Source of the DNA: Paracoccus shanxieyensis
GTDB lineage: Bacteria > Pseudomonadota > Alphaproteobacteria > Rhodobacterales > Rhodobacteraceae
Reading direction: 5' to 3'
Assembly (NCBI RefSeq): GCF_009711265.1
Contig: NZ_WMII01000004.1
Location: 124,001-188,000, forward strand
DNA: 64,000 nucleotides
Shown: one piece after another, positions 44,794 to 51,933 of the stretch
Layout: every line of letters starts with the position of its first letter
Position numbering within the stretch: the first letter of the stretch is position 1
The notes under the pieces: generated by a model
The model's input: the letters and a program-made list of their open reading frames with translations, nothing else
Told to the model about the DNA's origin: nothing
The model's database searches: none
Translations under genes and position numbers: made by a program

Positions 44794-46506
44794 TCAGCGC
44801 CGGTCCCATGGCATCGGCGGGTCCAGCCGCGGCCCGCCCTGCCCGCGGGCCAGATCGACCGCCTGGGCGCGGGTGCGCGGCGGGTTCGGCCCGGCCATGC
44901 GCTGCGACAGCCAGCGCGCCACCCGCGCGGTGGCGATGCTGGTGCCGCTGACAAATTGCAGACCGGCCCCGCGCAGAGCGGGGGCGGGCATCCCGGCCAG
45001 CAGCGCGCTGCGGTCACCCGGCGCGGTCAGATCGCCGCATGCGCCATCCCCCAGCAGACTGGCATAGGAGGTGATCGCCCCACCCCGCCCCGCGTAATGC
45101 GCGCCGCAGCGGATCTGCTGCGGCCCCCAGGCATAGGCGTTCAGCGTGCCGTCGCGCCGGATGACGGCATTCGGGGGCTGCGGATCGCGTGACTGCCAGC
45201 GACCGCTGGCATCGCGGTCGTGATAGGCGGGATCGGCCAGCCGCGACTGCCGGCCCGCACGCGGAAAGCCGAACAGCCGGTCGTCGCGCTGCACGGTGAC
45301 ATCGCAGGCGCCGGGTGCCTGAAGCAGCGTGATCTGCCACAGCCCCGGCGGCGCCAGCGCCTGCCCCGCCGCATCCGCAACCGTGGGCGGGGCGATCAGC
45401 GTCAGGCATTGGCGCAGGCCGGTATCGCGTTCGACCGCCTGCAGGACCAGCCGCGCAAGCTCTCGTCCCTGCGGATCGACCAGCTTGGCGATCTGCGCGC
45501 CCGCGCCGCCAGGGGCGGCGAAGGCCGTCTCGACCGCATCCAGCCCCGGCAGTTCCAGCCGCAGCCGGATGGCGGGCGCGCCAATGGCTGCGGGCGGGGT
45601 CCAAAGCTGCATCTCGCTGAGGGTGCGGTCATCGGGCAGAAGCTGCCAGCCCAGACCTTGGCCCGGCGCCAGCACCCCGTTCAGCCGCCGCTGCCGGGTG
45701 TTGCCGCTGGCCAGCACGAAATGCACCGGCCCAAGCTCGGGCGGCGGGTCATCGGCCAGATGCTGCTGCATCAGTTCGATCAGCGACTGGCCATCGCGCG
45801 ACCCTGCGGTGATCCCCAATGAGATATTGACCACCAGCGGCGGCCGAACGGGCGGCCCGGCAAGGCTGCGGTTGATCTGGCGCGCCAGCAACCGCGCGCG
45901 GCTGATGATGAACACGACCGCGACCTGCATCAGCAGCGGCATCGCTGCGCCCGAGGTATCTGCCAAGGCCCAGTCGGGCAGGCCGACGGCGATCAGCGGA
46001 TGCGCCCGACCGGTCGGATCGTCGGGCGGATAGCCGGCTGCCGTGCAGGCGATCCCTGCCCCATGGCTGCGCGCCCGCAGCATCCAGCGGCTTTGGGCGC
46101 GGGCCGCATCCATCAGGCCAAGCCCACGATACAGCGCCTCATCCGGGCAAAGCGTGGCACTGCCCGCGCCGCGAAGCTGGTCGATCTCGGGTCCGCGCAG
46201 TTCCTGACCGAACGGAATATCGGGCCGCGCCACCATCGGCGGCGGTCCGTCCTGCATCCAGATCGAGGCCACGCGGCTATGCCCGCTTTGCGTTGTCAGC
46301 AGGCGATGCGCAAAGGGGATGCAATGGTCGATCACCGCCACGATGGCCATCTGGCGCGGATCGGGCGGCATGGCCTCTGCCGACAGCAGATCATCGCCGG
46401 GCGGGACGCCCATTGCCGGAGGCTCGGGCGGCGCGAACAGCGGCAGATTGCGGGTCAGCTGCTCATACAGCGCGTCATAGCGCGCGACCGTGTTCAGCGC
46501 GATCAT
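44794..46506 (-). CDS. subtilisin-like (S8) serine protease, cytosolic type
   Basis: A 570-residue protein with a divergent S8 catalytic set: D60 in [11 protein letters not shown]148 in [15 protein letters not shown], the oxyanion N269 in VLASGNT and S523 in [14 protein letters not shown]. The His motif is SHGAGIA instead of HGTHVAG. A beta-rich insertion of about 250 residues (roughly 270-515) separates Asn from Ser. No signal peptide is visible. Its ATG overlaps the 71-residue gene by 4 bp and that gene overlaps the PAP2-type gene, so three products are coupled. The family is clear; role and substrate are unknown. Confidence 0.85.
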
Positions 46507-46718
46507 GTGTCGAACGCCGAGCGGATCAGCGCCTCCAGCGCGCCACGCCGCGCCCGCCGCAGATCGTGGGATACATCCGCGCCCAGTTCGGCCTGCGCGC
46601 CCTGCGGCGGATGCAGCAGGTAATCCACCAGGGCCGAGCCTTCGGCCCCGATCCGGGCATTCGCCTGATCGTCCAGCGGCTGGAACCGCAGATCCGGGCG
46701 GGGGTGCTTCACAGCCAT
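46503..46718 (-). CDS. 71-residue protein of the protease operon
   Basis: A short soluble protein beginning MAVKHPRPDLRFQPLDDQAN, with one predicted helix in ALVDYLLHPPQ and a basic helical C-terminus (HDLRRARRGALEALIRS). It overlaps the upstream PAP2-type gene by 10 bp and the protease gene by 4 bp. Its position suggests a partner, inhibitor or chaperone of the protease. No family is recognised. Confidence 0.7.
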   Translation of the reverse strand: MAVKHPRPDLRFQPLDDQANARIGAEGSALVDYLLHPPQGAQAELGADVSHDLRRARRGALEALIRSAFDT

Positions 46719-47797
46719 CTGGACCCCCATTCCGCCTGCGCCTCGGCCCACAGCGCCGCCAGCAGGTCCGAGACATTGGCCTGCACCGACGCGCCCACAA
46801 CCAGACAGTCATCGCCGCCGATCACGTCGCACAGCCGCGCCAGATGGAAATCGCGGCTATGGCCGGGGGCGGTGTTGCCCCACTGCTCGCCCTTGAAATC
46901 CAGCGCCGGGCAATCCTGCCCCGCAACGCCCGCGCGTGAGGCCAGCCAGCGCGCCAGCGTGATGCCCAGAACCGCGCCCGCCGCGCTGTCGACCGGGAAA
47001 TGCACCCCGGCGACGGTGCGGTTGACCGCGATCCGCGCCGCCATGCGATACAGCTGGCTGTCGGCGGTGATCGGCGCGGGGGCGGTGTGATCGGCGCGGG
47101 TCAGGATGGCCAGAAATGTCGCCAGCGCAAAGGCTTGCGTGGCATGGCCGCTGGGATAGCTGCCATGCAGCGGCGTGGGGATCATCGGCTGGACCTGATC
47201 GCTCAGCATCTCGGCGCGGGGCGCGGCGAAGGCCAGCTTGACGCGCTGCACCGCGAATGTCCCCAGATCGGCAACCAGCGCCATCAGCCGGCGCGTCATC
47301 GGCGCGCGTCCCGCCTTGATCGGCAGGATCGAGGTGAAGAAGCTGTCCAGATCGGTGGTCTGGACCAGAATCTCCTCCTGCCGCTCGGGCCGCAGATCGG
47401 CATAGCCCAGCACCAGCGCCAGTTCCTCGGCGAAATCCTGATCCGAGGGCAGTCGCAGCTTCAAAAGCGCCGCCTTCCCCGCATCGCCGCGCCCGTAGAG
47501 CGTGACCTTGGTGCTGGGCAGATCGGCGGGCGCTGGCGTGACGGTCAGCGTCTCCAGCATCTCGAACAGCAGGATGCCATGGGCGAAATGCTCCTCCAGC
47601 CGCCGCAGCCGCCGCAGCGGTGTCAGGGGCGCGCGTTGCGGCGTGGCGGCAGGCGGCGGCACGGCGTCGGCAATGCCGTCGCGCGCGATCATCAGCGCTG
47701 TTGACAGGCTGCCACTGCCGCCGCCAGACCCGGACGACTGGTGCGCATTATGGGCATTATGTGCATTATGGGCGTTATGGGCATTTGTCAGCGACAC
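46709..47797 (-). CDS. PAP2/vanadium-haloperoxidase-type enzyme with His-rich N-terminus
   Basis: A 362-residue protein with the acid-phosphatase/haloperoxidase set: K187 and R194 in KLAFAAPR, YPSGHA with H218, and R260, H266, D270 in RTVAGVHFPVD. The order matches the vanadate/phosphate pocket of PAP2 and haloperoxidases. The N-terminus has five Asn-Ala-His repeats (residues 5-19), then a Ser/Gly linker (20-30). No membrane helices are obvious, unlike lipid phosphatases, which favours a haloperoxidase-like soluble fold. The start is GTG with AAAGG upstream. It leads the coupled genes to the protease and is divergent from the regulator. Confidence 0.82.
   Translation of the reverse strand: MSLTNAHNAHNAHNAHNAHQSSGSGGGSGSLSTALMIARDGIADAVPPPAATPQRAPLTPLRRLRRLEEHFAHGILLFEMLETLTVTPAPADLPSTKVTLYGRGDAGKAALLKLRLPSDQDFAEELALVLGYADLRPERQEEILVQTTDLDSFFTSILPIKAGRAPMTRRLMALVADLGTFAVQRVKLAFAAPRAEMLSDQVQPMIPTPLHGSYPSGHATQAFALATFLAILTRADHTAPAPITADSQLYRMAARIAVNRTVAGVHFPVDSAAGAVLGITLARWLASRAGVAGQDCPALDFKGEQWGNTAPGHSRDFHLARLCDVIGGDDCLVVGASVQANVSDLLAALWAEAQAEWGSRWL
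47741..47785 (-). repeat. nine-base coding repeat, five units, encoding (Asn-Ala-His)5
   Basis: Five consecutive nine-base units encode Asn-Ala-His near the start of the PAP2-type protein. Codons vary slightly (AAT/AAC, GCC/GCA/GCG, CAT/CAC), so the array is not brand new. Unit changes would keep the reading frame and would only vary the length of the His-rich tail. Confidence 0.85.
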
Positions 47798-47886
47798 GGT
47801 GATAGCCTTTCATAACCAGCAAGGTTTCGTGCGGAATGCTTAATTCGGATAATATATCTGAACATTAGCAGGGGCTGCGATTCGCG

Positions 47887-49497
47887 ATGACAGCGACGTT
47901 GAGCCTGATGGGAACGGTCCGCTTGCGCGGGTCCGTCGGCGAAGACCTGACACCGCGCAGCCAGAAGGCGCGTGGCGCGCTGGCGCTTTTGGGCACGGCC
48001 CCCGACCTGCGCCTGAACCGGGCGCGGCTGCAGGATCTGCTGTGGAGCGATCGCAGCAAGCATCAGGGCTCGGACAGCCTGCGCCAGATGCTGCGGGAAT
48101 TGCGCTCCAGCCTGCAGGACGACCGCGAGATCCTGCAAACCGGCGTGGGCTGGGTCGGGCTGGATCCAGAGCGGCTGCGCATCGACCTGAGCCCGGTCTA
48201 TGATGCCGGGGGCGCGCCGATCGAATTTGCCGCCGATATCGACGTGCCCGACCCGGAGTTTGAAAGCTGGCTGCGCGACATGCGCCTGCGGCTGACGCCC
48301 GAAAGCGACGGCCCGACCGCGCGGATGCGCAAGCCCGACATTCCGCCGCCTCGGTCCTTTCTGATCGACGGCGCGACCCATCTCCCGGTCGGACGTCGGA
48401 CCGAACCCGCCTATGTCGTGGCGCTGGATCCGGTCGAGAGCAACGAAGCCCGCGCCCATGTCATCGGCGAGATGATCGTGAACGAGGCCGCCGCCCGCGC
48501 CTGCGAGATGATCCCCGCCACGCTGGCCGACCGCGTGCAGGACGACCAGACGGCCACTGGCACAAGGATCGCGGCGATCTGCTATGGCGTGGGCGCGGAT
48601 TGTTCGCTGATGCTGGTGATGCGCGACATCGCCTCGGGCGCGCGGGGCTGGACGCGGCGCTTCGGCATCCGCGCCAGCGATGAAACCGCCACGATGCGCC
48701 ATGCCATCGCCCAGATCACCGTGGCGCTGCTGGACCGGGCGCGGCGCACGGCCTCGCCGAACTGGACCGGCTTTCCGATCTGGGATGTCTTCAGCTTCTC
48801 GCGGGAGCGGCTGGAGGCGGCGGATGCCATTCTGGCCGCCCTGCCCCCGGAACAGGAAAACGCCGTCAGTCTGGCCCTGCGCTCCTATCTGCGCAACACG
48901 CTGATCATCGAGCGGCTGACCGACGATCCGGCGCTGTGTTCCGATCAGGCGGATGCCTTTGCCCGGCAGGCCCGGGCGCTCGCGCCGAACAATCCGGTGG
49001 TGCTGGCGGTCGCCTCGCTGTCGGCAAGCTGGCGGCGCGATGCCATCGGCGCGCTGGAACTGGCGCAGGCCGCCTGCCGCGCCGATCCCGACAATGAAAT
49101 CGCCTGCCACGCACTGTCGCAGGCCCTGACCGATGTGGGCCGCGACGCCGAGGCGCTGGAGGCCACGGATCGTGGGGCCTGCGGCGCGCTGGCCGAACTT
49201 GGCCCGGCCTCGTGGCTGATGCGCCGCGCGGTGGTGCAGGTCCGGTTGGGGCGTTTCGGGGACGCCGAAAACAGCGCCGCCGCCGCTTATGCCTTCGCCC
49301 CCGACAACCGCCCGTCGCTGCGCTTCATGGCGGCGCTGCGATGGCATCGCGGCGATCAGGCGGGGGCCGCCGATGCGCTTCGCCGGTTGCGGGTGATCGA
49401 GCCGGATTTCACGCTGGAGCTGATGGCCGACCCGGATTATCCGGTCTCGACCCTGCGGATGGCGGGGCTGATGGACATCACCCGCTCGCGGCTGTGA
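47887..49497 (+). CDS. SARP/HilA-like transcriptional regulator with TPR region
   Basis: A 536-residue protein. The N-terminal 95 residues form an OmpR/SARP-type winged helix (LTPRSQKARGALALLGTAPD, then LQDLLWSDRS and SDSLRQMLRELRSSL). The middle region (about 150-300) is of unclear fold, with a segment resembling the TolB/cyclase-linked domains that accompany such regulators. The C-terminal 230 residues are helical and TPR-like (ALELAQAACRADPDNEIACHAL, AENSAAAAYAFAPDN). No receiver domain is present. It is divergent from the PAP2-type operon and convergent with the pentapeptide gene, so it probably controls the island. Confidence 0.82.
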   Translation: MTATLSLMGTVRLRGSVGEDLTPRSQKARGALALLGTAPDLRLNRARLQDLLWSDRSKHQGSDSLRQMLRELRSSLQDDREILQTGVGWVGLDPERLRIDLSPVYDAGGAPIEFAADIDVPDPEFESWLRDMRLRLTPESDGPTARMRKPDIPPPRSFLIDGATHLPVGRRTEPAYVVALDPVESNEARAHVIGEMIVNEAAARACEMIPATLADRVQDDQTATGTRIAAICYGVGADCSLMLVMRDIASGARGWTRRFGIRASDETATMRHAIAQITVALLDRARRTASPNWTGFPIWDVFSFSRERLEAADAILAALPPEQENAVSLALRSYLRNTLIIERLTDDPALCSDQADAFARQARALAPNNPVVLAVASLSASWRRDAIGALELAQAACRADPDNEIACHALSQALTDVGRDAEALEATDRGACGALAELGPASWLMRRAVVQVRLGRFGDAENSAAAAYAFAPDNRPSLRFMAALRWHRGDQAGAADALRRLRVIEPDFTLELMADPDYPVSTLRMAGLMDITRSRL

Positions 49498-49505
49498 CGC
49501 GGCGC

Positions 49506-50213
49506 TCATGGCACCACCCGGATATCAATCGTCAGGGTCTTTCGCCCCTTGCCCATGCCGATGCGCAGCTGCGCCTGCCCGACGGCCAGCGCGTCAAGGA
49601 TCAGTCTGGGTTCAGGCGGGCTGCCCGGTCGCGGCCAGACCGGGCGCAGGATGGGGGCGGCGCCGCTTTCGTCCTGCCGGATGCGGGCGCGCTGCGGCGG
49701 ATCGTCCAGCCGCAGCTCCAGCCGCTCGCCCAGACGCAGCGTGACCGGCCCGTCCAGTTCCGTTTGCAGCAGCACGCGCGTCCGGGGACCTGTGGCCTGC
49801 ACGAAACGGATCGGCGGCGCGCCGATGGCCAATGCGCGCTGCATGGCGTCCAGCCATGAATTTTCCAGCTCGGCCCCGGTCAAATCGGCCCCGTCAAGCT
49901 GGGCGCCTGTCAGGTCGCTGTCGCAGATCACCGCGCCGCGCAGGTCGGCCCCGGCCAGCATCGCCAGCCCCAGATTGGCCCCGGCAAGGTTCGCGCCGCG
50001 AAAATCCGCGCGCCGGGCCGAGACCGACCAAAGACAAGCGCCGCAAAGCTGGGCATGGCGCAGATCGGTCCCGGTCAGATCGGCATAGCTCAGATCCGCG
50101 CCGACCAGCGTCAGGCCCGACAGGTTCAGGCCCGACAGATCCGCGCCGCCCAGCTGAAGCTGGCCAAGCGCCACGATCTTGCGCAGGATCTGGGCCCGCG
50201 TGTGCTTTGCCAT
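49506..50213 (-). CDS. pentapeptide-repeat protein with beta-rich C-terminal domain
   Basis: A 235-residue protein. Residues 21 to about 120 are pentapeptide repeats of A(D/N)LxG type (GADLSGLNLSGLTLVGADL and on), forming a right-handed beta helix. The last 100 residues have alternating hydrophobic residues (VLLQTELDGPVTLRLGERLEL), probably a small beta sandwich. ATG 50213 is preceded by GGAGG. It lies 82 bp after the caspase-like gene on the same strand and ends 8 bp from the regulator stop. Possible roles are scaffold or DNA mimic; nothing proves either. Confidence 0.85.
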   Translation of the reverse strand: MAKHTRAQILRKIVALGQLQLGGADLSGLNLSGLTLVGADLSYADLTGTDLRHAQLCGACLWSVSARRADFRGANLAGANLGLAMLAGADLRGAVICDSDLTGAQLDGADLTGAELENSWLDAMQRALAIGAPPIRFVQATGPRTRVLLQTELDGPVTLRLGERLELRLDDPPQRARIRQDESGAAPILRPVWPRPGSPPEPRLILDALAVGQAQLRIGMGKGRKTLTIDIRVVP

Positions 50214-50295
50214 TCCCGCCTCCCTCCTGTGGCTGTGCGGTTCTGCTGCCGGGCGGTGCCCGGGAATGGCTGCCTCCATCCCCGGGCTACTGGAT

Positions 50296-51933
50296 TCAGT
50301 CGCCCAGGTCTGACTGGATCCAGTAACGCTTGCGGTAGCCGCGCACGCAGCAGATCTCGATGCCCTGCCGGGCCACCAGACGCGCGGTATTGCTGCGGAT
50401 CGCATAGCCGATCTCGGTCATGCCGGGCAGGACGCGCAGGGTCAGCGGCGCGGCCCCGCGCGCGGCCAGATCGCGCATCAGCCGCGCGCCTTCCCGTGCC
50501 AGCGCATCGCGGACGGCGCTGCCGCCATGGCTCGTATCGGAAAGCGGCGCGGCCTCGGGCGGAATGGGGTGATGAGCCAAGGCTGGCCGCCGCAGATCGG
50601 CCTCGATCCGCAGCAGGCTGCCATCGGGGCGCAGCGTGACGCGGACCCGGCCCAGATCGGGGGTAATCACCGGAATGCCGTCGATCACCTGACGAAACTG
50701 CACGATGATGTCGTCGCAGGTTTCCGGCAAACTCTCGCCATCAGGCCGCAGACAGCGCCCCGCCGACAGCGACAGCGCAATGCCATCGAAGCACAGATCA
50801 TAGCCCGCGCGCAGAAAGCCGTGTCGCCGCAAGGCCGACCATGCCCGCCCCAGCAAGGCGCGTTTCTGCACGGCGACGCGGCCCCGCCCGCCCCGTGAGC
50901 CGCGGCCATAATCCACCATCACAGTGCCGCGCGGACAGCGCAGGACGCGCAATCCCGGCAAGGACAGCTTTTGCGGCAGGTGGGGTGCGGGCGGCGGCGG
51001 CAGGCTGTCCGGGTCCAGATCCAGCGCCGCAAGCACGGCCCCGATCAGATGCAGATCCTGATCTGGCGCGACCAGCCGGACCCGCGCCGCGCCCCGCGAC
51101 ACCTGCGTGACGGGATCGCGGTGATATTGCGTCAAGGGCTGACGCCAGCGCCACATCCACCAATCCCGCCCCGAGGGTGCGGGCCGAAAGCGGCTTTCGC
51201 CAAACAGCCGCGCCTGCGCCTCGTCGCGGGTGCCGCCCATGGCGCAGGCCACCGCGACCTGATCCTGCGCGACATCGGCCGCGCCATCCAGCCAAGCCTG
51301 CGCGAAGCCCTTGCCCCGCGCCCAGTGACGCCAGAAATTCCGGCCATAGCTGCCGCTGTCCCATGATGCAGACTCAAAGCCGAACATCATGCGCAGGCCG
51401 CGATTGGCCAGGGCCCAGCTGCGCATCGGGCTGTGGCCTTCGGCCACGCGCAGCGATTCACTGGCCGACCAGAACATATAGCGCAGCTTCTCGGCCCCGA
51501 ACCGCATCCGGGTCGAGGCAAGGCTGGCATCCGCCCCCGCCCACATCGCGCCCATCGGCAGATGAAACACCCCTGCCTCATCCATCGCGCCATGGCCCGC
51601 GTGGTAGAACACCCGCACGTCATCCAGCCCTTGCGCGGCGGGCGCGGCCTCGGGGCGGGCAAAGATCCATGATTGCACCAACCCGTCACGCCGCCAGAAA
51701 TCCGCCGTGGCATAGCGGTCCACGCCGTCCAGAAAGCCGCCCGCATCGCGATGTGCCGCGTTCAGCGACCCGGCGGCGCGGAAGGTCTCGACCGAGCAGG
51801 CGCCATACAGGCCCTGTTTCAGGGCGTGGCACGCCGCCGCAGGCTCGGCGGGGTCCGATCCGTCCGTGGCGATCTCGGGCAGCCAGCCCGGCAGGCTGCG
51901 CGCAACTGGGGCGGGGCGTTTCAGATCCTGCAT
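50296..51933 (-). CDS. caspase-like (DUF6345-type) protein with Cys replaced by Ser
   Basis: A 545-residue protein. The first 240 residues resemble the DUF6345 group: VRVFYHAGHG (H111, H114), then LRYMFWSASESL, then GFESASWDSGSYGRNFWRHWARGKGFAQAWLDGAA. In caspase-like folds the HG motif is followed by a Cys after the next strand; here the equivalent position appears to be S158. The C-terminal 300 residues are beta-rich and unassigned. CAGGAG lies 7 bp before ATG 51933. It leads a two-gene unit with the pentapeptide protein. The family assignment is by pattern memory. Confidence 0.7.
   Translation of the reverse strand: MQDLKRPAPVARSLPGWLPEIATDGSDPAEPAAACHALKQGLYGACSVETFRAAGSLNAAHRDAGGFLDGVDRYATADFWRRDGLVQSWIFARPEAAPAAQGLDDVRVFYHAGHGAMDEAGVFHLPMGAMWAGADASLASTRMRFGAEKLRYMFWSASESLRVAEGHSPMRSWALANRGLRMMFGFESASWDSGSYGRNFWRHWARGKGFAQAWLDGAADVAQDQVAVACAMGGTRDEAQARLFGESRFRPAPSGRDWWMWRWRQPLTQYHRDPVTQVSRGAARVRLVAPDQDLHLIGAVLAALDLDPDSLPPPPAPHLPQKLSLPGLRVLRCPRGTVMVDYGRGSRGGRGRVAVQKRALLGRAWSALRRHGFLRAGYDLCFDGIALSLSAGRCLRPDGESLPETCDDIIVQFRQVIDGIPVITPDLGRVRVTLRPDGSLLRIEADLRRPALAHHPIPPEAAPLSDTSHGGSAVRDALAREGARLMRDLAARGAAPLTLRVLPGMTEIGYAIRSNTARLVARQGIEICCVRGYRKRYWIQSDLGD

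Follow-up and report, generated by a model that had tools for sequence, protein, structure and literature searches.

A repeat-tagged PAP2-type enzyme encoded with a TPR regulator and a subtilase: a candidate peptide-barcode module in proteobacteria

The window analysed here is a stretch of 64,000 nucleotides from Paracoccus shanxieyensis (contig NZ_WMII01000004.1, positions 124,001 to 188,000). An earlier note on this DNA had placed six genes at window positions 44794-51933, and all six open reading frames are confirmed. The features are:

44794-46506, minus strand: S8 subtilase, 570 aa counted from the ATG at 46506
46503-46718 or 46730, minus strand: small ORF, 71-75 aa
46709-47797, minus strand: PAP2-superfamily enzyme (PAP2), GTG start, 362 aa (PF01569, 46.8 bits)
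47741-47785, minus strand: tandem NAH x5 array opening PAP2, directly behind the initiating MSLT
47887-49497, plus strand: SARP-like regulator with winged helix, CadC/FlgO-like middle and TPR superhelix
49506-50213, minus strand: pentapeptide-repeat protein (PPR; PF00805, 90.7 bits)
50296-51933, minus strand: DUF6345 protein (PF19872, 59.5 bits)

Overlaps of 4 to 22 bases join PAP2, the small ORF and S8 in a pattern as in a coupled operon. The 672-aa S8 frame of the ORF list starts too far upstream, and the ATG at 46506 is preferred. The six genes are flanked by purM, by a gene that we take to be purN, and by an IclR-type gene that we presume to be the bhcR of the earlier note (purM and IclR were assigned through Pfam). 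Of the parts listed previously, the active-looking subtilase, its small partner, the PAP2 enzyme and the regulator stand and are conserved across genomes, while the haloperoxidase and caspase labels are not supported. The NAH repeat did not figure in that list.

The six genes form two units, i.e. a module of regulator, PAP2, small protein and S8, and a separate PPR/DUF6345 pair. A co-occurrence search, as proposed earlier, bears out the core. Around S8, regulator, PAP2 and S8 are found together in 40 of 40 loci, with the regulator divergent in 37 and co-directional in three. A scan of named genomes anchored on PAP2 places a regulator next to PAP2 in each of the best 80 loci (46 divergent, 34 co-directional), with S8 co-oriented within 900 nt in 79 and all three genes present in 79/80. 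Because the three genes stay together in both samples, the core is not a chance grouping. By contrast, the full six-gene set is limited to the window and five of 40 fetched loci (L060, L061, L063, L064 and L065; the small ORF in L061 and L064 recognised by position only), every one at the purM/bhcR site.

Among 125 genomes of the genus, DUF6345 occurs in 19, S8 in 54 and both in six, where simple multiplication expects 8.2. In nine loci that carry DUF6345 without S8 (read from 13 such genomes), the regulator is kept in eight and PPR in seven, and PAP2 or S8 in none. For these reasons the six genes do not make up a single system, as had been supposed, and a six-gene conflict island acting as a unit is rejected. 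PPR, confined to the purM/bhcR site among the fetched loci, is also found there without PAP2/S8; PPR and DUF6345 are a local accessory pair in Paracoccus, outside the conserved module. The DUF6345 protein, formerly labelled caspase-like, keeps an HAGHG motif and has Ser in 6/6 aligned proteins at the position that we assume, from known caspase motifs, to be that of the nucleophilic Cys. Lacking this presumed Cys of the His/Cys dyad, it is rejected as an active caspase.

In S8, D60, H148, G268-N269 and S523 are invariant among 28 homologues, giving an Asp-His-Ser triad and oxyanion Asn. S8 thus looks like an active subtilase, as predicted. It also looks cytosolic, and its PF00082 match is under the cut-off (17.9 against 21.8 bits). 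By profile search, the solved structures nearest to it are the Csp germination proteases (9sj6, 4i0w; CspB and kin). Unlike these, S8 is paired with PAP2 and a regulator and has an N-terminal [DS]PYxxW segment that is sometimes split off; we know of no link to sporulation. Asn269 and Ser523 are separated by a long additional stretch that may, judging from the spacing, be an inserted domain. The small protein is the N-terminal segment of S8 in detached form. Its HMM matches the N-terminus of fused S8 proteins (1.5e-13 in L090, the same as L188; 1.6e-10 in L112, the same as L192; 1.6e-4 in L097), and visual inspection shows a small ORF of the same kind in some 33 of 36 Paracoccus-type loci. A [DS]PYxxW-type motif lies in the N-terminal part of 37/95 long S8 frames, against a background of 59/2324 frames that includes those 37; of the 58 long frames without it, the 12 listed are split or over-extended.

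In PAP2, K187, R194, P215, S216, H218, R260 and H266 are invariant in 28 homologues, and the vanadate-site residues (K, R, S-G-H, R, H, the G nearly invariant) are present. This residue set also occurs in PAP2 phosphatases. The best PDB matches of the AF2 model (pLDDT 91.5) are the acid phosphatases 7f17/7f18; acid phosphatases occupy ranks 1-23 of the fold search, and a vanadium halogenase first appears at rank 31 (E 0.011). The sequence profile gives acid phosphatase at 6.4e-20, LpxE at 9.7e-12 and bromoperoxidase at 1.1e-8. PAP2, a putative phosphatase, thus resembles class A acid phosphatases in fold more than it does haloperoxidases, and identity as a vanadium haloperoxidase, implied by the label "haloperoxidase-type", is rejected as the weaker match by fold and profile alike. 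Core fold and active-site set are common to PAP2 and the class A non-specific acid phosphatases of the PAP2 superfamily (PhoN, PhoC, 7f17), but the enzyme described here is longer, has no visible signal peptide or membrane segment and carries the N-terminal repeat barcode.

This repeat is kept perfect at the amino-acid level while the identity of its unit turns over quickly. In the window, the five NAH copies read AATGCCCAT AACGCCCAT AATGCACAT AATGCCCAT AATGCGCAC, and the PAP2 start is the single site of NAHNAH-encoding DNA in its genome. Of 127 distinct PAP2 proteins, 124 carry a perfect tandem tri- or tetrapeptide (123 with at least three perfect copies, 124 counting L110), with about 60 different units, whereas in a control of 5174 other ORFs at least four copies were found in 17, of which 15 are homopolymers or N runs. 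Across the set, 906 copies are perfect and 23 have one mismatch, the latter mostly at array ends. Copies differ by synonymous codons and rarely in amino acids, with a codon identity of 0.39 between copies (0.32 between neighbouring ones) against 0.49 expected. Because these synonymous differences exceed what codon usage predicts, pure DNA-level slippage is rejected as the sole cause of the repeat. Slippage is still visible in copy-number changes and identical neighbouring copies, and NSF is present in four to six copies among Phaeobacter plasmids. Units differ despite 91-93% core nucleotide identity (L080/L081, L224/L229). The mixed array of L338, with NAH x3 followed by TAQ x4, looks caught in mid-change and suggests that a new unit may arise by mutation and spread by slippage. 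A three-residue repeat is also found in HxsA His-Xaa-Ser proteins (TIGR03979), but the PAP2 unit is not fixed to HxS and the match scores 18.3 bits against a cut-off of 121.65. The repeat poses an evolutionary puzzle, namely why all copies must be identical when the choice of word is almost unconstrained.

The regulator has a winged helix (about residues 1-100), a CadC/FlgO-like middle (176-288) and a TPR superhelix (about 298-534). Its AF2 model (pLDDT 90.3) matches TPR superhelices in Foldseek, and the periplasmic domain of CadC is also among the hits. In a Pfam scan of 52 homologues, TPR families match up to 33, Trans_reg_C five and FlgO two, and the window's own regulator has no family at E <= 0.001. 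Its match to the BTAD domain, on which SARP assignment turns, scores 15.9 bits, under the cut-off of 22.1; a plasmid homologue carries a SARP annotation. The domain order is shared with SARP and CadC-type winged-helix regulators with TPR-bearing sensor domains, but this regulator lacks a visible membrane segment and its TPR domain co-varies with the repeat of a neighbour. Because eight regulators are retained, and still conserved, where no PAP2/S8 neighbour is present, the regulator has another job too. For an operator shared by regulator and PAP2, k-mer inspection alone gave no result.

Across all pairs, which are not independent of each other, the repeat unit varies in step with the TPR domain of the regulator next to it and not with the DNA-binding domain or S8. 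TPR residual identity is +0.081, -0.002, -0.015 and -0.062 at unit distances 0, 1, 2 and 3 (n = 99, 174, 187 and 88), with no comparable fall for the winged helix or the S8 insert. The logistic TPR coefficient is 3.0 (1.6 to 4.65, taxon bootstrap), the AUC lead of TPR over S8 is 0.114 (0.014 to 0.219), and in divergent loci the AUC is 0.83 for TPR against 0.56 for the winged helix. Nearest neighbours share a unit in 54-55 of 86 cases for TPR, 52 for the PAP2 N-part and the regulator middle and 41-48 for the rest, a small lead. A tree test is weak: with full alignments it counts 68 and 71 changes of unit for the two TPR segments and 70-73 elsewhere, and with resampled columns 70.3-70.5 for TPR and 71.2-74.5 elsewhere, the minimum possible being 58. 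In a ten-member subclade, two regulator columns only, both in the TPR region, separate three HGE from seven xxQ units; one of them, by our own count position 9 of TPR helix A, holds R or Q. A global R/Q code at this position is rejected, since HAK, NAR and NAN regulators carry R as well. NAQ is paired with unlike TPR types (L092 and L084, TPR identity 0.48). The window's own regulator is outside this set because the short locus L100 represented its PAP2. Together, the comparisons support co-variation of the regulator TPR domain with the PAP2 barcode.

Such co-variation could also arise if recombination tracts swapped the array along with neighbouring regulator DNA, with no recognition involved. 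In line with this, the C-terminal halves of regulators resemble swapped alleles, and in co-directional loci the winged helix also tracks the unit, while the last helices and C-terminus show the largest excess; because this is the regulator end beside the array, linkage is possible there. In divergent loci, however, the effect is confined to the C-terminal half, though the winged-helix end is nearer the array, and the association holds with the TPR end far from the repeat, which makes hitchhiking unlikely overall. The excess divergence in these loci extends across the regulator middle and TPR parts and is not confined to groove helices.

We suggest a model in which the TPR domain, given its co-variation with the repeat, would be the reader of the PAP2 tail. 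The model would build on regulator, PAP2 and S8 genes that are kept together across proteobacteria and on a barcode, the perfect short-peptide repeat, that is maintained at the amino-acid level and quick to turn over in identity; the supported co-variation of barcode and TPR domain would be its third step. The TPR superhelix would then bind the repeat tail multivalently, and the enzyme, or peptides cut from it, would be the private ligand of the regulator. To these four steps jointly, i.e. a three-part regulatory module with a repeat-tagged PAP2 phosphatase read by a TPR regulator, we give slightly less than an even chance. In a speculative fifth step, which we regard as doubtful, the subtilase would cut or trim the tail on a cue and thereby alter both the state of the regulator and the output of the operon, in parallel with the roles of subtilisins and TPR receptors in the peptide signalling of Bacillota. 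Our broadest proposal is tentative, possible rather than probable: a writable peptide barcode in which the phosphatase repeat would be a private address, decoded by the co-encoded TPR regulator and edited by a dedicated protease, with words arising by mutation and slippage and with reader and word switching together to give dozens of mutually insulated versions. If true, this would be a natural code that pairs short peptide words with their readers, for which 59 words across 119 regulators are available; it would help in learning or designing the specificity of TPR domains for peptides and in building insulated circuits in bacteria.

Alternatively, the low-complexity repeat could be a self-assembly tag that drives homotypic clustering or a threefold-helix bundle, the unit being free if the copies match and the TPR link being indirect. 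The presence of G, A or S in every unit, the low AF2 confidence of the PAP2 tail (pLDDT 42 and 47 for the first two ten-residue blocks) and what we take to be a likeness of many units to phase-separating or elastin/FG-like words speak for such a tag. It does not predict graded tracking of the unit by the TPR domain of another protein, and self-repulsion would be expected of charged units (NAE, NAD, HAE, NAR); we think it an unlikely explanation.

Rap receptors, like the regulator described here, are TPR proteins; RRNPPA receptors use a helix-turn-helix type of their own, whereas this regulator has a winged helix. PMC11343458 and PMC8605241 describe RRNPPA systems of Bacillota (Rap/Phr and kin) that resemble the module in tandem short peptide words, protease processing and jointly diversifying receptor/peptide specificities; for instance, Bacillus phages have tandemly duplicated pheromone propeptides with Rap receptors (PMC11343458). 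A C-terminal TPR domain is found here too (AF2, Foldseek, and Pfam TPR in many homologues), but here the words form perfect repeats of 3-4 aa at the N-terminus of a cytosolic-looking 362-aa PAP2 enzyme of proteobacteria, with no separate secreted precursor gene beside the receptor and no hydrophobic leader visible by eye in MSLTNAHNAH. A quorum-sensing-like pherotype system, in which the subtilase would free array peptides that pass from cell to cell and activate the TPR regulator, is suggested by the tandem copies, the fast private diversification and the receptor co-variation, which recall pheromone systems. We consider it decidedly unlikely, in that the array forms the start of a conserved enzyme and not a precursor of its own, inspection by eye shows no secretion signal in the PAP2 or S8 of the window, and no exporter recurs in 25 of 43 neighbour families (ABC_tran and MFS_1 once each).

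The module is found in alpha-, beta- and gammaproteobacteria and on plasmids. Its distribution is patchy (54/125 genus genomes by S8, as above, and 9/385 in a class sample), and 11 of 36 records are conjugative. Among 80 viral PAP2 relatives kept of 108 from IMG/VR, none has the repeat, S8 or the regulator, and viral carriers are rejected. An anti-phage or abortive-infection module, with the protease sensing infection and the enzyme or tail as effector, would fit this patchiness, the mobile carriage and the fast-changing parts, but is improbable: PADLOC (2023) models match none of the six window proteins or 45 PAP2 proteins, its "subtilase" model matches 1/28 S8 proteins, the 70 neighbours scanned (loci L189-L233) show no defence enrichment (four PADLOC families, each represented once; three are MADS genes), and many Paracoccus loci sit at one and the same location with common neighbours, so that vertical inheritance looks likely there. 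The same scans count against a defence island and against the conflict or programmed-death module of the earlier note. Among the matches listed from open-access full-text literature there is no paper on this proteobacterial gene set, which did not turn up in the other sources searched either; where annotation was read, its genes carry generic names only.

We take the core genes of this island to form a proposed peptide-code regulatory circuit. In this reading of the sequences, the TPR regulator would read a multivalent private word carried on the PAP2 enzyme, and the subtilase would act as editor of the word. The six genes described in the earlier note are all present in the window:

44794-46506, minus strand: S8 subtilase
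46503-46730, minus strand: small ORF
46709-47797, minus strand: PAP2 enzyme; NAH x5 at its N-terminus (47741-47785)
47887-49497, plus strand: SARP/TPR regulator
49506-50213, minus strand: pentapeptide-repeat protein (PPR)
50296-51933, minus strand: DUF6345 protein

Successive overlaps of 4 to 22 bases join PAP2 to the small ORF and the small ORF to S8; these three genes are divergent from the regulator, and PPR and DUF6345 follow. The island is flanked by purM/purN and an IclR-type gene in a genome of 4.33 Mb, and the closest named relatives in a profile search of named genomes (best 80 of 512 places) are Paracoccus species.

The six genes do not form the single system that had been suggested, because DUF6345/PPR loci without PAP2 and S8 exist and S8 loci mostly lack DUF6345/PPR. 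In 40 loci of 14-20 kb fetched around S8 matches, S8 has PAP2 and the regulator beside it in 40/40, across several dissimilar neighbourhoods, while PPR and DUF6345 are confined to the purM/bhcR-site loci L060-L065, of which L062 is without DUF6345. DUF6345 is present in 19/125 genus genomes, and six of these also have S8 (8.2 expected by simple multiplication). In loci from nine of the 13 genomes with DUF6345 and without S8, the regulator is present in 8/9 (74-78% identical), PPR in 7/9 and PAP2 or S8 in 0/9. Regulators thus also survive without PAP2, which limits the proposed reading. Because the PPR-DUF6345 pair persists beside the regulator without PAP2/S8, it is a neighbour unit, with the regulator common to both units at the purM/bhcR site. 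At this site in eight other genus genomes (L363-L369, L371), the regulator adjoins DUF6345, with PPR in 7/8, and PAP2 and S8 are absent. As the TPR of these regulators is still conserved in the absence of PAP2/S8, the regulator at this site may also regulate the accessory pair.

The S8 catalytic residues are invariant in 28 homologues, and the closest solved relatives by sequence profile are the Csp germination proteases. In three independent cases, the small-protein profile matches a fused S8 protein at its N-terminus, where fused proteins have a W...[DS]PYxxW-like segment; judged from these matches, the small protein is the S8 N-terminus in detached form. The PAP2 active-site residues are also invariant. 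The earlier label "haloperoxidase-type" is the weaker match for this enzyme (AF2 model, pLDDT 91.5): its top fold matches are the acid phosphatases 7f17/7f18, and its sequence profile matches acid phosphatase at 6.4e-20 and, more weakly, bromoperoxidase at 1.1e-8. The regulator model (AF2, pLDDT 90.3) has a winged helix, a CadC-like middle and a TPR superhelix.

S8 matches occur in 54/125 genus genomes, 21/149 genomes sampled over the family and 9/385 sampled over the class (profile A1, E <= 1e-20). A PAP2-alignment profile search of named genome contigs gave 512 confirmed places, and the best 80 examined include Paracoccus, other Rhodobacteraceae, Microvirga, Bradyrhizobium and Reyranella, among others, as well as Hydrogenophaga, another Comamonadaceae, a Chromatiales and a Granulosicoccaceae. 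In these 80 loci, S8 is co-oriented with PAP2 and at most 900 nt away in 79 (in the exception, L220, S8 lies on the opposite strand at a distance of 986 nt) and a regulator is near PAP2 in all 80 (46 divergent, 34 co-directional). A further 40 S8-anchored loci (L110-L149) have a PAP2 match in 35, all except L117, L127, L128, L139 and L143; in these 35, S8 is near in 34 (28 on the same strand) and the regulator in 34. The S8- and PAP2-anchored sets overlap, with several genomes common to both. In a phylum sample, PAP2 profile matches, some weak, are present in 21/398 genomes. Of 36 matching plasmid records, 21 are from Phaeobacter, and 14/15 plasmid loci examined are annotated with "winged helix-turn-helix" or "SARP", "PAP2 family" and "S8 family". 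On the Phaeobacter inhibens M647 plasmid (L350), the three genes are annotated as shortened or split ORFs, unlike in sister strains, and this is apparently a decaying copy. A search of open-access full texts turned up no paper describing these genes as a set.

PAP2 starts with a few residues followed by a perfect tandem short peptide, seen in 79 of the best 80 of 512 loci within the part of each that was inspected; the 80th, L160, shares a 771,149-base contig with L066, whose unit is NAH. After removal of exact duplicates over the last 230 residues, 123/127 distinct PAP2 proteins have at least three perfect copies; L110 likewise has three, while L148 (degenerate), L114 (two copies, S8 in pieces) and L129 (fragments) do not. 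The period is three residues in 109 arrays, four in 13 and six in one; the 60 distinct units all contain G, A or S, and copy number ranges from 3 to 16 (median 7). Perfect copies number 906 versus 23 with one mismatch, mostly at array ends. Codon identity between copies is 0.39 versus 0.49 expected from own-gene codon usage (0.32 for neighbouring copies), and 96/123 arrays are at or below expectation. Since the copies are perfect in amino acids yet differ in codons, the repeat is maintained at the amino-acid level and sameness of DNA is avoided or lost. Among 5174 other ORFs in the loci, 17 contain a 3-4 aa unit repeated four times or more; 15 of these are homopolymers or N runs, and DPV and GAS are the two real words. 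The DPV array, long and perfect, lies in a reading frame adjoining one system (L145:7248-9905) and is likewise an array of a short word. In the window's own genome, NAHNAH-encoding DNA is unique to this site and the two other PAP2 proteins have no repeat within their first 150 residues. Three copies are found in 0/80 viral PAP2 relatives. These eighty IMG/VR contigs (L234-L313, kept of 108) encode proteins 22-41% identical over the matched part, with no repeats, S8 or regulator within the viral stretches examined.

The unit turns over rapidly relative to the core: L080/L081 have 91% nucleotide identity in the core, yet HGQ versus HGE in every copy, and L224/L229 have 93%, yet SGGI versus SGGL. 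In Phaeobacter (14/15 plasmid loci examined), the unit is NSF in 4 to 6 copies, and codon differences among the arrays listed are synonymous. The plasmid-borne PAP2 of Paracoccus sp. AK26 (L338:4887-5954) has a mixed array, NAH x3 then TAQ x4, with three of the four TAQ copies identical in DNA; its regulator and that of L070, a relative with NAH x8, are 97% identical, and this is probably a unit switch in progress. At L338, a SIR2-family gene lies two genes past S8.

If the word has a reader, that reader is expected to change whenever the word changes. Systems 50-97.5% identical in the S8/PAP2 core gave 562 pairs (99 same-unit; 119 taxa, with the near relative L060 included and the window's own regulator left out); the pairs have ancestors in common and are not independent. 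In the 548 pairs with equal-length units, TPR residual identity is +0.081, -0.002, -0.015 and -0.062 at unit distance 0, 1, 2 and 3. No matching fall is seen for the winged helix (0.019, -0.037, 0.024, 0.024) or the S8 insert (-0.005, -0.010, 0.003, 0.022), and only a slight one for the PAP2 N-part (0.018, 0.004, -0.009, -0.008). The TPR effect is not explained by rate, with mean identities of 0.60 for TPR, 0.62 for the winged helix and 0.51 for the S8 insert and PAP2 N-part. A logistic model bootstrapped over taxa singles out TPR as the sole clearly positive predictor (3.0 [1.6, 4.65]; PAP2 N-part 1.18 [-0.05, 2.32]; regulator middle -1.22; PAP2 C-part -1.27). Nearest neighbours have the same unit in 54-55/86 cases by TPR and in 41-52/86 by other regions. 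On trees, the gain for TPR is small: with full alignments, the two TPR segments give 68 and 71 unit changes, the regulator middle and winged helix 73, PAP2 70-72 and S8 71-73; with resampled columns, TPR gives 70.3-70.5 versus 71.2-74.5 elsewhere.

Linkage between the array and neighbouring regulator DNA could also generate this co-variation by hitchhiking. The divergent layout places the winged-helix end nearer the array and TPR at the far end, so that hitchhiking should favour the winged helix; yet in divergent loci the AUC is 0.83 for TPR and 0.56 for the winged helix (remaining regions, 0.55-0.74). In co-directional loci, the AUC is 0.91 for TPR and also high for other regions (0.76-0.84), and the excess divergence concentrates on the array side, in the C-terminus and the last helices of the TPR, where linkage may account for it; this makes hitchhiking somewhat more probable, but as a general explanation we consider it unlikely. 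The earlier suggestion of a conflict module finds no support: no defence association was found with PADLOC models for the six proteins and 45 PAP2 proteins (1 of 28 S8 proteins matched a "subtilase" model) or in the 70 of 153 counted neighbours scanned. In the proposed reading, the reader-and-word module would work like RRNPPA peptide sensing, but it fails the precursor feature and is therefore not filed under RRNPPA.

Between L124 (SGV) and L228 (TGL), identity is 0.90 in PAP2, 0.79-0.91 in S8 regions and 0.93 in the winged helix versus 0.70 in TPR. In a ten-member subclade, HGE and xxQ units are separated by two regulator columns, both in the TPR region: TPR position 9, which we take to be ligand-facing (R with E, Q with Q), and a G/A column in the preceding helix. 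As a wider code, the R/Q rule fails for HAK, NAR and NAN. An ATGTTA(n)CAT-like near-palindrome, seen by eye between regulator and PAP2 in several divergent loci (L066-L072), is a possible operator.
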